In this document: positions 8,359-41,552 of the stretch, in pieces
Layout of the letters: each line of letters begins with the position of its first letter
How positions within the stretch are numbered: position 1 is the stretch's first letter
DNA from: Gammaproteobacteria bacterium
GTDB taxonomy: Bacteria; Pseudomonadota; Gammaproteobacteria; Ga0077536
DNA length: 41,698 bases
Direction: 5' to 3'
Assembly: GCA_009692265.1 (NCBI GenBank)
Contig: SHZM01000029.1
Location: 1-41,698, forward strand
Made by a program: the position numbers and the translations under genes
The notes under the pieces: generated by a model
Databases searched by the model: none
What the model saw: only the letters and a program-made list of their open reading frames with translations
Told to the model about the DNA's origin: nothing

Positions 8359-8610
8359 TTGGCCGAACTGAAGCAGAACCGCTTACGCTGGCGATGCCGC
8401 CGTGGCATGCGGGAGCTCGACATCGTCCTCTCCTGCTTTCTGGATCGCGATTTCGAAACGCTTTCGTCCGCGCAGCGAGTACATTTCTCGTCGCTCCTGG
8501 AGACTCCCGATCCTGAGCTCTACGCGTGGTTGCTCCGGCGCGAAGTACCAGCACAACCGGAATTTCAGATCTTGATTGCGATGCTACAAAGTCAACTAGT
8601 CGTACCATGA
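8359..8610 (+). CDS. sdhE: SdhE, FAD assembly factor for succinate dehydrogenase
   Basis: SdhE (CptB, YgfY) helps attach FAD covalently to SdhA. The 83-residue product carries the hallmark RRGMRELD (about 14-21), followed by the family's FLDRDFETLS and LLETPDPELYAWLL segments. The start is a TTG three bases after the sdhB stop; no better start precedes the conserved region. The stop overlaps the ygfZ ATG (ATGA). Placement directly behind sdhB is functionally fitting. In E. coli it instead pairs with ygfX, which here lies on the other side of the sdh genes. Confidence 0.93.
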   Translation: MAELKQNRLRWRCRRGMRELDIVLSCFLDRDFETLSSAQRVHFSSLLETPDPELYAWLLRREVPAQPEFQILIAMLQSQLVVP

Positions 8611-36953: not shown

Positions 36954-37014
36954 TTTCGTCCACTGTCCGCACTTGAACCCGAGCCACGGCTGAGTCTACT
37001 TACGATGACCTCGG

Positions 37015-37040
37015 TGATCCAAAATGCGTGATAAACCGTA
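37015..37040 (+). promoter_or_regulatory. ECF-sigma (RpoE/ChrR-type) promoter of the sigma gene
   Basis: TGATCC (37015-37020), 16 nt, CGTA (37037-37040), preceded by GG. The same pattern stands upstream of the DUF4331 gene (38363-38388). Promoters reported for Rhodobacter sphaeroides RpoE carry TGATCC about 18 nt before a TA-rich -10, which fits. The predicted transcript start is about 37048. This suggests autoregulation of the sigma gene. Confidence 0.7.
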
Positions 37041-37124
37041 TCCGCGCACATGGAATCACTTGCCTATAAGTTGCCGTATCGACTACAACGCCCACTACTG
37101 AGGGCGGGTGGAACGCTTAGAACT

Positions 37125-37703
37125 GTGCAAGTTTTTGCTAAGAACGTTGATAACCTTGCCGTCGAGACCGAGCTACTCATGCGCGTCAGAGACGCACAGG
37201 ATGCGAACGCATTCGATCGCTTATTCAATGCGTTAGGATCGAAAGTGCTCGGCTACCTAACGCGTTCGGGCGGTTGTTCACCCGACGATGGCGAGAATGT
37301 ACTCCAGGAAGTGTGGCTAACGGTTTGGACCAGGGCACAGTCATTTGATCCGAGCCGCGCGAGCGCCCACACCTGGATCTTCGCGCTCGCGCGCAATGCC
37401 ATGATCGATTTGAAACGCAGCCAATCGCGCGAATATCGGGTATTTGTACGCACTAGCGAGGACCATGAGGATCCGGTCGATAATGAGCTGAATCACTCAG
37501 GTTTCATCGATAGCGAGAAAACAGCAGCGTTACTGGACCAGATCCCGCCGGAGCAGGCGCAGGTATTATTGATGGCCTATGTCGAAGGTAAATCACACCG
37601 CGAGATAGCGCGAGAACTAGGCCTACCCTCCGGCACCGTCAAATCCCGGCTGCGACTAGGCTTTTCGCGGTTGCGCGGGATGCTAGAGGGTACAACGGCG
37701 TGA
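37125..37703 (+). CDS. rpoE: ECF sigma factor, RpoE/ChrR-controlled group
   Basis: An extracytoplasmic-function sigma-70 factor. Region 2 reads AFDRLFNALGSKVLGYLTR to LQEVWLTVWTRAQSFDPSRA, then SAHTWIFALARNAMIDLKR. Region 4 reads QVLLMAYVEGKSHREIARELG and LPSGTVKSRLRLGFSRLR. The pairing with a ChrR protein identifies the group. The frame is open from an ATG at 37050, but that ATG lies only about 2 nt after the predicted transcript start, so it would be leaderless. I prefer the GTG at 37125; the ATG at 37179 is also possible. The stop overlaps the chrR GTG (GTGA). It is not the RseA-controlled RpoE of E. coli. Confidence 0.85.
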   Translation: MQVFAKNVDNLAVETELLMRVRDAQDANAFDRLFNALGSKVLGYLTRSGGCSPDDGENVLQEVWLTVWTRAQSFDPSRASAHTWIFALARNAMIDLKRSQSREYRVFVRTSEDHEDPVDNELNHSGFIDSEKTAALLDQIPPEQAQVLLMAYVEGKSHREIARELGLPSGTVKSRLRLGFSRLRGMLEGTTA

Positions 37704-38329
37704 ACGTTCAACAACATCCTGAACTTGCGTGGCTGATCGATTACTCCGCCGGGAAACTCAGCGCCGGCTTTCACACCGTGATCGCGGGTCACCTCGGCGT
37801 GTGCGACGACTGCCGTGAACAATTGCGAGCGGCCGAACGTCTTGGCGCTCATCTCACCGCCGAGCGCCCACAACTAAAACCGCGTGTCAGCGCGGCAGCG
37901 ATCCGTGCGCGCGCTCGGCAAGAGGCGACACTCACGACCGAAGCGGCAGTCCCCGGACTACGTGAATTTGTGGCTTCTTCACTCGGATTCAGGTGGGACG
38001 CGCTCACCTGGCGCGCGGGCGTCGCCGGCTTAAGGATTGCGCGCTTGAAAGACCAGGACGAAGAACGAATTTGGTTGCTCCGTGCGGAGCCGGGCGTGGC
38101 GTTACCCGAGCACACTCATGAGGGTGCCGAGCTGACATTGATTCTGCATGGCGCCTACCGTACCGATGATCAACTTTTTCGTGCTGGTGACATCGACGAA
38201 AACGATGAAGAGATCACGCACCGTCCAATCGTCACCGCCGACAGCGATTGCATTTCGTTGCTGGTGTTTGAAGGTCGACTCCACTACACCAGTGCAATGG
38301 GGCTCGCGCAGCGGGTGCTTAAGTTCTGA
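37700..38329 (+). CDS. chrR: ChrR-type zinc anti-sigma factor with cupin domain
   Basis: Holds the ECF sigma inactive and releases it on an oxidative signal, in Rhodobacter singlet oxygen. The N-terminal zinc anti-sigma domain has H6, H31, C35 and C38, the same numbers as Rhodobacter ChrR. The C-terminal cupin has H138, H140, E144 and H174 (EHTHEGAELTLILHG...EITHRP), each three less than the four known zinc ligands there. All eight ligands are therefore kept. These positions also support the GTG start at 37700. It has 209 residues. Confidence 0.93.
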   Translation: MNVQQHPELAWLIDYSAGKLSAGFHTVIAGHLGVCDDCREQLRAAERLGAHLTAERPQLKPRVSAAAIRARARQEATLTTEAAVPGLREFVASSLGFRWDALTWRAGVAGLRIARLKDQDEERIWLLRAEPGVALPEHTHEGAELTLILHGAYRTDDQLFRAGDIDENDEEITHRPIVTADSDCISLLVFEGRLHYTSAMGLAQRVLKF

Positions 38330-38344
38330 ATATAGTAGCGTGAG

Positions 38345-38364
38345 CACCGCTTAGTTGCGCGGTG
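38345..38364. repeat. inverted repeat overlapping the DUF4331 promoter
   Basis: CACCGC (38345-38350) is complementary to GCGGTG (38359-38364), with an 8-nt loop. The right arm runs into the TGATCC box of the promoter. It could be the end of the chrR transcript (weak terminator) or an operator. No T-run follows. Confidence 0.35.
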
Positions 38365-38388
38365 ATCCAGATCGACCGCGCGTTCGTA
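38363..38388 (+). promoter_or_regulatory. ECF-sigma (RpoE/ChrR-type) promoter of the DUF4331 gene
   Basis: TGATCC (38363-38368), 16 nt, CGTA (38385-38388), preceded by CGG. It is identical in boxes and spacing to the promoter before the sigma gene. The predicted transcript start near 38396 gives a 43-nt leader with a strong ribosome-binding site (GAGGAGAAA) before the ATG. Confidence 0.72.
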
Positions 38389-38438
38389 CACATCCTCGTT
38401 AGCCATTTCACGGCAATCATCAACGAGGAGAAACCATA

Positions 38439-39980
38439 ATGACCATCCGTACTACTCGGCTCACGTGCGCGCTGTTCGGCGCGTTTGTGGCCGGCAATTG
38501 CTGGGCGGCGAGCCACAGCGACGCACCACTGATCAAACAGGATCCGCAGGCGAACATCACCGACGTGTATGCCTTTATCGGCGAAAAATACGATGCCCCC
38601 GCGATCAAGGTGCTGAATGTCGTCGTCCAGGTGCGACCGTTCTCGGAACCAGGCGACGGCGTGATCTACGATCGTTTCGCCGACGATGCGCGCTACAGCA
38701 TCCACATCACCAACCCGACCTCGGGCGCGCTGACGGCGCGCTATGACTTCAATTTCTCGCGCGTGAACCCGACTACCGCACCGGGCCTGAAAAACCCCAA
38801 CACGGTTCTGTCCTATGGACTTGGCACCGCCGCCGGCCCGATCCTCCAAATCGGCGATGCTCAACAGAACTTCACGCAGTTTTATACAGTCACGAAGACG
38901 AAAATCGGCGCACGCCGAAATACCATCACGAAGATCGCGACGAACGTTCCGGTCGCACCGCCGAATGTCGGGAAAAATACTACTCCGGCGTACAACGATG
39001 TTAACGGGGTAGCTGTCTCGAGCGCGACGACCTTCGCCGGTCTTGATTCATACACTCAAGACGCAGTCACCAGCCTCGCCACGGGTGAAGCCGTCTTCGC
39101 GGGACCTCGCGATGACGGTTTTTACAGCGATATTCCGGGCATCTTTGATTTGCTCAACGCGCGGATCCTCAATAACGACGGGGATGCGGATGACGGGCTC
39201 GGCCAGGACGGCGGTGGGGTCGATGGCTTCAAAGGCTTCAACGTGCTGTCGTTCGCGATTCAGATCCCAGTCTCGGACTTGAAAACCTTCGACTACACCG
39301 CGCCCTTCGCCGATCTCGCGGACCCGTTACCAGCGCTCGGGCAAGCCACCGGCGTCGGGGTCTTCGCCTCGGTAAGTCGACCCGAGACGACCGAGCGTTC
39401 GAGCCTGAAAGGCCCGGTCGGGAAAGGGCCCTGGATTCAGGTCGCGCGAATGGGCAATCCCTTGTTCAACGAAGGCTTAGTTGCACTCAAGGACAAGGAT
39501 AAATTTAACCGCACTAAACCAACCGGTGATGCGGCCTCGTTTGGTACTTACGCGACGAACCCGGAACTTGCGTTTCTTATCAACTTTGTCGTTTTCCACA
39601 TGCCCGACGGGCTAACGCCGATCCCCACGACCGGGCGGAGCGATTTAGCGGCGGTGTTTATTCCGGATGTGCTCCGGGTCGATACCACGACGACTCCAGT
39701 AAGACTCGCGGGTCAGGGAGGCTTTAGTCGATTCAGCTTCGCTGGCGGCGACACCGTGACCGATGCTGACGGGCTCGTGAAACCTTCGGGTTGGCCAAAT
39801 GGTCGGCGGCTCGGCGATGACGTTGTCGATATCGCTCTGACCGCGGTCGCGAGCGGCCCGACCTACGATCCCATCACCGTGGTGGGCGATAACGTCGACA
39901 GTAACGATGCGACCTATCACCAGGTTTTCCCTTACTCCGCGACACCACACTCCGGCACGTTTAGCCGCAAAGATCCGTAG
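38439..39980 (+). CDS. exported DUF4331 protein, predicted target of the ECF sigma factor
   Basis: A 513-residue protein with a clear signal peptide (TTRLTCALFGAFVAGNCWA, cleavage near residue 23-24), so periplasmic or outer. The mature N-terminus SHSDAPLIKQDPQANITDVYAF is the DUF4331 signature. Further in come DGVIYDRFADDARYSIHITN and GDDVVDIALTAVASG. The function of the family is not known to me. A single visible cysteine lies in the signal peptide, so disulfides are not expected. It is the first gene after chrR and has its own ECF-type promoter, so it is probably made when the sigma factor is released. A long perfect hairpin follows the stop. Confidence 0.85.
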   Translation: MTIRTTRLTCALFGAFVAGNCWAASHSDAPLIKQDPQANITDVYAFIGEKYDAPAIKVLNVVVQVRPFSEPGDGVIYDRFADDARYSIHITNPTSGALTARYDFNFSRVNPTTAPGLKNPNTVLSYGLGTAAGPILQIGDAQQNFTQFYTVTKTKIGARRNTITKIATNVPVAPPNVGKNTTPAYNDVNGVAVSSATTFAGLDSYTQDAVTSLATGEAVFAGPRDDGFYSDIPGIFDLLNARILNNDGDADDGLGQDGGGVDGFKGFNVLSFAIQIPVSDLKTFDYTAPFADLADPLPALGQATGVGVFASVSRPETTERSSLKGPVGKGPWIQVARMGNPLFNEGLVALKDKDKFNRTKPTGDAASFGTYATNPELAFLINFVVFHMPDGLTPIPTTGRSDLAAVFIPDVLRVDTTTTPVRLAGQGGFSRFSFAGGDTVTDADGLVKPSGWPNGRRLGDDVVDIALTAVASGPTYDPITVVGDNVDSNDATYHQVFPYSATPHSGTFSRKDP

Positions 39981-39987
39981 GGGTACG

Positions 39988-40019
39988 ACGGGAGGCAGAT
40001 TCGATTCTGCCTCCCGTCC
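39988..40019 (+). terminator. perfect 13-bp hairpin after the DUF4331 gene
   Basis: GACGGGAGGCAGA (39988-40000) is fully complementary to TCTGCCTCCCGTC (40007-40019), with loop TTCGAT. It starts 8 bp after the stop codon. No T-run follows, so termination may be incomplete, or it may protect the mRNA 3' end. Confidence 0.65.
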
Positions 40020-40085: not shown

Positions 40086-40553
40086 ATGCTCGAAACCTTG
40101 TTCCCGAACGGGATAATCCATTACCTGGCTGGCGGAATCTTGATCGGCCTTGCAGTCAGCCTCGCCTACCTCACCACCGGCCTCGTCACTGGCATGAGCA
40201 CAGTCTTTAGCTCGACGTGGTCGTACCTTTCAACGCTGTCGTTCTTCCAAGAACCACGCTTCGTTGCCAGTAGGCAATGGCGCCTTGTGCTCGCACTGGG
40301 TTTAGTCATCGGCGCTAGCCTGTGGGCAATAACCTCAGGTGCCGGGCAAGCCCACACCACTGTCCATTGGTGGCAGCTGCTGATTGGCGGCTTCATCGGG
40401 GGTTTTGGCGCGCGGATGAGTAACGGGTGTACCTCGGGCCACGGGATTTGTGGGCTGGCCTCGCTCCAGGTGCCGTCCCTGGCCATGGTAGTCGTCTTTC
40501 TGACGACGGCGATTGTCGCCGCCAATGTCGTGTTGCAGTTAGGAGGCGTGTAA
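40086..40553 (+). CDS. YeeE/YedE family transporter, first half
   Basis: A 155-residue membrane protein with about four helices. The signature GARMSNGCTSGHGICGLA (about 110-127) carries the conserved cysteines used in YeeE-type uptake of thiosulfate or related sulfur compounds. It is encoded with a second half (40553-40990), as in the split YeeE/YedE pairs found in many proteobacteria, in contrast to the single fused YeeE of E. coli. A ribosome-binding site (AAGAGG) precedes the ATG. It follows the DUF4331 gene after 105 bp, so it might be reached by read-through from that promoter. Confidence 0.88.
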   Translation: MLETLFPNGIIHYLAGGILIGLAVSLAYLTTGLVTGMSTVFSSTWSYLSTLSFFQEPRFVASRQWRLVLALGLVIGASLWAITSGAGQAHTTVHWWQLLIGGFIGGFGARMSNGCTSGHGICGLASLQVPSLAMVVVFLTTAIVAANVVLQLGGV

Positions 40554-40990
40554 TGAAGCAGACTTCGCTTTTTGCAGTATTAGTTTCCGGAGTGCTATTT
40601 GGCTTCGGTTTAGCCCTCGCGACGATGATTCGACCGGAAGTAGTGTTGAGCTTTTTACGCTTCCAGGACTTTGGCCTGCTGGCCGTCTTAGGCGGTGCGG
40701 CAAGCGTGACCGCGGTTGCCTACCAACTCGGGCCGAAGCTGCTGCGCAAGCCGCTGTTCGAGGCGAGCTTCGGCAAACATGCCGCGGCAATGAACTCACA
40801 AACCCTTGGTGGTGCCGCCCTGTTTGGGATCGGTTGGGGCATTTCAGGGGTGTGCCCAGGTCCGGCCATTGCAGGCTTAGGCACCGGTAACTGGCCGCTA
40901 CTCTTCGCGTTATTCGGTTTATTCTGCGGCGCGTATGTTCAGGGTTGGTGGGCAAGCCGCCCAGCGGCTGGCGTGCCGGCGCCTCTCTGA
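40553..40990 (+). CDS. YeeE/YedE family transporter, second half
   Basis: A 145-residue membrane protein with about four helices. GWGISGVCPGPAIAGLG (about 101-117) has the conserved cysteine of the second repeat of YeeE/YedE. The frame is open upstream of 40553, but the ATG there overlaps the preceding TAA (TAATG), has GGAGG 9 nt before it and gives the normal start. The two halves together would make one transport unit for a sulfur compound. It is convergent with hupE. Confidence 0.88.
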   Translation: MKQTSLFAVLVSGVLFGFGLALATMIRPEVVLSFLRFQDFGLLAVLGGAASVTAVAYQLGPKLLRKPLFEASFGKHAAAMNSQTLGGAALFGIGWGISGVCPGPAIAGLGTGNWPLLFALFGLFCGAYVQGWWASRPAAGVPAPL

Positions 40991-41005: not shown

Positions 41006-41552
41006 TCACCATACCGGCAAATCGACGGCGACGGCGCGCTCGATGAACCACCCGAGCGCAATGACGGCGATTGCGGCCGACCCCGTTTGATAGACCACGT
41101 GCCGATAGAAGCGGCTTTTTCGCACGTAATAGACCGGCAGAAATAGCCCAACGAGCGCGAGCTGACCGAGTTCAACCCCGACGTTAAAGCTGCACAACGC
41201 CACACTTAAGGCTTGTGCCGGCAGGCCGAGATCACGGAGCACGCTGGCGAACCCGAAGCCGTGGACTAGACCAAAACCGAACACGATTTGCCAGCGCCAT
41301 TGCAGGCGGGTGCTGCACAGATTGGCGATCGCGGCAAACACCACCGACCCGGCAATCACCGATTCGACGGCGCGCGAGGGCAGGCTGAGAATCCCCAGCG
41401 CGGCAAGCGCTAGGGTGATCGAATGCGCGAAGGTAAAGGCTGTCACCGTTTTGAGGATATCGACACACACGATCCGGCGGCTCGCTGCTGCGTGCCAGCC
41501 TTCGCGGCTACGCCAAGCCATCGTCGGTAAGAGCAGACTCACTAAAAATAAA
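41006..41552 (-). pseudogene. HupE/UreJ-family membrane protein, N-terminus removed by an IS
   Basis: The remaining frame (from LFLVSLLLPTMAW to AVAVDLPVW) shows VTAFTFAHSITLALAALG, FGFGLVHGFGFASVL and ALCSFNVGVELGQLALVG, the C-terminal half of HupE/UreJ-type nickel or cobalt permease-like proteins. At 41553 the coding sequence meets the end of an ISL3-like element, exactly where an upstream segment with a conserved histidine should begin. A GTG at 41542 could start a 178-residue product that keeps about five helices. The original gene would extend to the right beyond the IS, outside this window. Confidence 0.75.

Follow-up and report, generated by a model that had tools for sequence, protein, structure and literature searches.

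Matching ECF11-type promoter motifs before a sigma factor/ChrR operon and the neighbouring DUF4331 gene in a gammaproteobacterium

Sigma factor/ChrR pairs of the kind described here have been studied in other bacteria, and promoters have been published for two of them. The consensus TGATCC-N16-CGTA was derived from ChIP-seq for PSPTO_1043 of P. syringae (PMC5507510). In the RpoE2-ChrR system of S. oneidensis, the same motif precedes rpoE2 and pgpD, and transcription starts have been mapped (PMC4336711). The sections of these two papers used here liken the box to that of R. sphaeroides (PMC5507510, PMC4336711), in agreement with the claim of an earlier note that TGATCC is the -35 element of the Rhodobacter RpoE-ChrR group.

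We analyzed a stretch of 41,698 nucleotides from a gammaproteobacterium (the window; contig SHZM01000029.1). Judging from its sequence, the window very likely encodes an ECF11 sigma/ChrR pair under its own control, whose sigma factor is also directly responsible for transcription of the adjacent DUF4331 gene. In the mechanism we propose, ChrR would hold the sigma factor through its zinc anti-sigma domain until a signal, by analogy singlet oxygen or an organic peroxide, is sensed by the cupin domain and ChrR is lost. The free sigma factor would then recognize TGATCC-N16-CGTA at both its own operon and DUF4331, leading to production of the exported DUF4331 protein, which would act in the cell envelope. 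A search of the window's own genome (95% complete) for the photosynthetic reaction centre family gave zero matches, and therefore singlet oxygen, if it is the signal, would come from another source.

The sigma/ChrR pair and the two promoter motifs

The pair is of the sigma-E/ChrR kind (ECF11). The best solved relative of the sigma factor is R. sphaeroides RpoE (PDB 2q1z, 99.3 bits). In a 75-row tree it clusters with that protein and seven further ECF11 sigmas from related genomes (support 97/80); its neighbour there is L224 from G005, a genome of the same genus, to which it is 64% identical. The ChrR gene, which overlaps the sigma gene by 4 nt, encodes a protein that passes the cut-off of TIGR02451 (129.2 bits; cut-off 124.5) and is the single match to that model in its own genome. 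It scores 107.1 bits, below the curated 300, against NF051881, a narrower ChrR equivalog (cadmium/peroxide/UV responsive). The sigma factor model for SigK (NF007228), although the top NCBIfam row, gives 107.1 bits, below its curated 226. The earlier note had all eight zinc ligands of ChrR at matching positions, and alignment with R. sphaeroides ChrR (2z2s) bears this out: H6, H31, C35 and C38 align with H6, H31, C35 and C38, and H138, H140, E144 and H174 with H141, H143, E147 and H177 (residue numbers counted by hand from the alignment). We take those eight residues of 2z2s to be its zinc ligands.

Table 1. Coordinates and parts of the features of the window
Feature	Coordinates	Strand	Basis
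P1, promoter of the sigma/ChrR operon	37013..37040	+	pattern match; published consensus
P1 parts: GG; -35 TGATCC; N16; -10 CGTA	-35 37015-37020; -10 37037-37040	+	
ECF sigma factor, ECF11 (RpoE-ChrR) clade	37050..37703	+	Pfam; PDB 2q1z; tree
ChrR anti-sigma factor, both zinc sites	37700..38329	+	TIGR02451 above cut-off; 2z2s alignment
P2, candidate promoter of DUF4331	38361..38388	+	pattern match; co-variation in other loci
P2 parts: GG; -35 TGATCC; N16; -10 CGTA	-35 38363-38368; -10 38385-38388	+	
Shine-Dalgarno-like GAGGAG of DUF4331	38425..38430	+	sequence
DUF4331 protein, 513 aa, signal-like N-terminus	38439..39980	+	PF14224 9e-81; model pLDDT 85.9
Perfect 10-bp inverted repeat, just 3' of DUF4331	39990..40015	+	read by eye

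One copy of TGATCC-N16-CGTA precedes the sigma gene (37015-37040) and a second precedes the DUF4331 gene (38363-38388), as the earlier note had proposed. The sites it quoted are real, although its coordinates begin at TGATCC and not at GGTGATCC. Both have GG directly 5'. P1, recognized as an ECF11-type promoter by sequence only, ends 9 nt before the ATG (37050) of the longest sigma frame, whose start codon is provisional, and the -10 of P2 ends 50 nt before the DUF4331 ATG (38439). With spacers of N15 to N18, the pattern has only these two matches in the window, compared with a mean of 0.23 in shuffled windows; at least two matches occurred in 2 of 100 shuffles. An ATG lies about 8-9 nt after the -10 CGTA in all eight ECF11 sigma genes inspected by eye (window 37037-37052; L211-L216 and L224), and therefore the ECF11 sigma transcript may be leaderless, whereas the DUF4331 transcript would have a Shine-Dalgarno leader.

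Could DUF4331 be expressed mainly by read-through from the sigma/ChrR operon, with P2 idle and sigma control indirect? Only 109 bp separate ChrR from DUF4331, on the same strand, and two loci elsewhere (L013 and L025) have DUF4331 and a sigma gene in one operon. However, P2 matches the promoter consensus exactly and lies at a distance from the ATG that suits a promoter, and read-through is impossible in divergent loci (L178, L204-L207), which nevertheless have matched promoters. We consider this explanation very unlikely.

The own genome contains 32 matches to TGATCC-N15-18-CGTA, nine of them with N16, against about 19 expected (the window shuffle mean, scaled up). Beyond P1 and P2, 29 of 30 matches fall inside frames of at least 120 codons on either strand, a rule that is only a rough sorter since a 182-codon antisense frame overlaps P2 too. 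The remaining match (C43:12963) lies between genes, about 300 bp ahead of one that presumably encodes a TAT-like exported, DUF1329-like protein. A regulon defined by the exact motif was set aside: in the whole-genome scan suggested by the earlier note, only P1 and P2 of the 32 sites had convincing promoter placement, and no further convincing target appeared. Allowing one mismatch at N16 gave 217 sites, with about 194 expected (window shuffle mean 2.37, scaled) and 75 for a reversed-pattern control. Because 217 is close to the expected number, weaker targets are indistinguishable from chance by motif alone.

The gene downstream of ChrR was correctly named in the earlier note: its product matches PF14224 (DUF4331) with E 9e-81 and 272.7 bits (curated 27), and it is the genome's sole hit to that family. 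Its first 25 residues are signal-like, which makes export probable. Its structure model is confident (pLDDT 85.9, pTM 0.89), yet a function could not be read from the fold, as no recognisable PDB relative was found: a Foldseek search of the PDB gave nothing at E 0.001 or below (TM was 0.06 for the first row), and a sequence search found no solved relative up to E 1. The inverted repeat that follows the gene is a possible terminator without a T run.

The genes around the pair and DUF4331 form a sulphur-metabolism setting. A CysI-type sulphite reductase gene lies upstream of the sigma gene, and two half-size sulphur transport genes (Sulf_transp and DUF6691; 40086-40990) lie between DUF4331 and a HupE/UreJ_2 gene on the opposite strand (41006-41542). 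The HupE/UreJ_2 protein has only 178 aa, compared with 382 in L198 and 395 in L041, and may be a vestige of DUF4331's customary neighbour. An EF-hand-like stretch was seen by eye in the N-terminal part of the longer proteins (L041 4599-5786, L198 6583-7731), which suggests that they bind calcium.

Promoters and sigma factors at DUF4331 loci in other genomes

We compared 116 DUF4331 loci, comprising 80 named loci, 35 stretches from class and family relatives, and the window. The named loci are the best 80 of 316 found, ranked by match to the window protein, and the sample is biased to near relatives. Eight of the 116 were left out of the upstream counts for want of a usable DUF4331 N-terminus, leaving 108 upstream regions. 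When all pairs of 4-mers separated by N14-19 were counted in the 99 non-redundant regions, with no motif preset, ATCC-N16-CGTA was the top pair, present in 26 of 99 compared with 0-1 in each of 20 simulated sets. It was also present on the opposite strand of 12 regions, which we read as divergent sigma promoters. The spacing is specific: between 12 and 21, sites before DUF4331 number 27 at N16, 7 at N17 and 0-1 at each other spacing, and sigma genes are preceded by 14 sites at N16 but 0-2 at any other spacing. Most of the sites before DUF4331 lie 30-90 nt upstream of an ATG. In the rest of the loci there are 48 at N16 and 16-31 at other spacings, part of them before other genes of the same loci and part within coding frames. 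For example, L176 has GCATCC-N16-CGTATA (8425-8452) 64 bp upstream of a further gene for a signal-bearing protein, which that locus's sigma may also control.

A common core, ATCC-N16-CG, was recognized only after looking at how the site varies between clades: Streptomyces has CAATCC and CGAA, Verrucomicrobia GCATCC and CGTT, Planctomycetes AATCC and CGTA, and class relatives GCATCC and CGTA. The pattern ATCC-N16/17-CG(TA/TT/AA) is found in 59 of 108 upstream regions, compared with 3-5 at other spacing pairs. Among the non-redundant regions the count is 52 of 99 (32/70 named; 20/29 class relatives and window), whereas simulation gave a mean of 2.5 and at most 6 per 99.

The motif is not universal. 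No site by this pattern was found in 49 of 108 upstream regions, and strict TGATCC, absent in most DUF4331 loci, was rejected as a general DUF4331 motif. The earlier note's expectation that the motif would be conserved in orthologous loci was largely borne out, in G005 and in other lineages, where matching promoters precede the linked sigma and DUF4331 genes. The promoter pattern appears to be general to DUF4331, changing with the sigma clade, a point absent from the earlier note.

The two promoters of a locus vary together. Among 64 loci with a linked sigma gene, 38 of the sigma genes had no site by the pattern used, and both sites were recognized in 23 loci. In these 23, the two promoters share their -10 tail in 22 cases and their -35 class in 18, compared with averages of 10.8 and 10.3 for shuffled partners; tails and classes were picked after seeing the data, and the statistics ignore ancestry (8 of the 23 pairs are Streptomycetaceae). 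The -35 classes were TG/TG in 3 loci, xC/xC in 12, xA/xA in 3 and xA/xC in 5. The mismatching pairs are five Streptomyces in -35 class (CA and CC) and L067 in the -10. The TG/TG loci are the window, L034 (Phycisphaerae) and L178, whose sigmas lie in three parts of the tree, with weak placement of L034.

The second -35 base also tracks one recognition-helix residue of the linked sigma in 42 of 47 loci (Fisher p 3.7e-8, uncorrected for ancestry, for a position and classes chosen after seeing the alignment): R or K goes with C in 21 of 23, and other residues with a base other than C in 21 of 24, 11 of those 21 being Streptomycetaceae. Two dubious sites, L179 (second) and L042, were kept in this test and count against the pattern.

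These results bear on the possibility that P2 fits the motif by chance, or serves some other regulator or sigma, with DUF4331 no target of the window's sigma. The number of exact matches expected in the genome and the many DUF4331 loci without a site speak for it. The single TIGR02451 match of the own genome argues against it, and chance would not readily give the spacing specificity, co-variation and helix correlation seen over the whole set; we judge this possibility highly improbable. Instead, the DUF4331 gene of the window is very probably a target of its neighbouring ECF sigma, to judge from these patterns, and the sigma/ChrR-DUF4331 regulon put forward in the earlier note gains support from motif conservation and co-variation across genomes.

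Among the 116 loci, neighbours include an ECF sigma gene (67, as a raw count), a TPR protein (57), a ChrR-like cupin protein (49), HupE/UreJ_2 (29), DUF4198 (16), a PEP-CTERM-like protein (15) and NicO (12). Neighbours were found with single-sequence or HMM seeds and ten representatives were checked against Pfam; the two PEP-CTERM-like ones among them had no Pfam match. In L123 (115-1289), a gene that by eye is thiolase-like is in two pieces, 115-732 and 846-1289, perhaps by a frameshift or assembly error. The linked sigmas are spread over several separate clades of the 75-row tree. Together the neighbours suggest an envelope module, and HupE, NicO and DUF4198 give only a lead to a metal role.

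The linkage of DUF4331 to ECF genes might have another cause, such as a role of DUF4331 in sensing or as co-transferred cargo, the motifs reflecting shared intergenic ancestry. The ECF genes in 67 of 116 loci and statistics uncorrected for ancestry would be in keeping with this. Against it, a motif also precedes DUF4331 or its operon where the stretch has no ECF gene (L198, L009, L057, L058), and the sigmas belong to several clades; we regard this explanation as unlikely. We see about an even chance that DUF4331 marks a widespread ECF-controlled envelope module, made up either of DUF4331, a TPR protein and a membrane protein of HupE/UreJ or NicO type, or of DUF4331 and DUF4198. In such a module the governing sigma would change between lineages and the -35 and -10 would follow the recognition helix, so that DUF4331 loci would offer a natural series of promoter/sigma co-evolution across phyla.

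DUF4331 and its promoters in close relatives

Outside the window we found seven ECF11 pairs, each with TGATCC-N16-CGTA in front. Four same-family genomes (G010, G018, G024, G030) have an ECF11 pair with this motif as well as a second pair, linked to DUF4331 and preceded by GCATCC or TCATCC. The DUF4331 genes of these genomes have GCATCC, matching the linked pair, with N17 in three of the four. Among five same-genus genomes besides the window's, only G005 has DUF4331. There, TGATCC-N16-CGTA lies 68 nt before the first gene of a PEP-CTERM-DUF4331-HupE-TPR operon, and the only two TIGR02451 matches are in ECF11 pairs elsewhere in the genome with the same motif. The G005 DUF4331 protein groups in the tree with those of the four family relatives, and therefore the promoter differs with the available sigma inside one protein lineage. 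Two further relatives agree with this picture only partially. In L013, an ECF11-clade sigma and DUF4331 share an operon whose first gene is preceded by TGATCT-N16-CGTATA, a site chosen among the many hits of a permissive search. In L025, which also has an ECF11-clade sigma in its DUF4331 operon, no site was found before the first gene.

By identity and tree, the window DUF4331 and the DUF4331 proteins of its family relatives belong to different subfamilies. The window protein is 33-34% identical to them (L198, L205, L207; 31-35% in another comparison), and 56-71% identical to proteins from loci of Betaproteobacteria, Chromatiales, Planctomycetota, Verrucomicrobiota and others. This suggests that the window DUF4331 arrived horizontally or by replacement and that its TGATCC promoter was gained or brought along.

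Comparison with known systems

If our interpretation is correct, an exported protein family without known function gains a definite regulator, along with a stress context that can be tested in many lineages. The paired promoters are also a natural data set for the joint change of ECF recognition helices and -35 elements, in which a single helix position is enough to sort 42 of 47 cases. In the open literature searched, chiefly the main texts of freely available papers, there were zero hits for DUF4331 or PF14224, for UreJ with ECF sigma and DUF, or for SigK with RskA and CCATCC, and a wider DUF4331 module with interchangeable governing ECF sigmas did not turn up there either.

Streptomyces DUF4331 loci resemble the window in having an ECF gene, SigK-like, beside DUF4331 and matching -10 tails. 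However, the linked sigma is of another clade, grouping with SigK 4nqw (100/94), and the promoters have CAATCC or CCATCC with CGAA. We take the -35 of SigK to be CCATCC.

The sigma-E/ChrR pair of R. sphaeroides (ECF11, singlet-oxygen response) shares with the window its sigma clade and the eight ChrR ligands. Both ChrR proteins combine a zinc anti-sigma domain with a cupin domain, and DUF4331 is not named in the portion of the R. sphaeroides account consulted (PMC6852236). The P. syringae PSPTO_1043/1042 system has exactly the consensus of the window, also before its own sigma gene, whereas the targets given in the part of that study used here are genes other than DUF4331 (PMC5507510). The S. 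oneidensis RpoE2-ChrR system has an exported target, PgpD, as we propose for the window, although PgpD is a glutathione peroxidase, unlike DUF4331 (PMC4336711).
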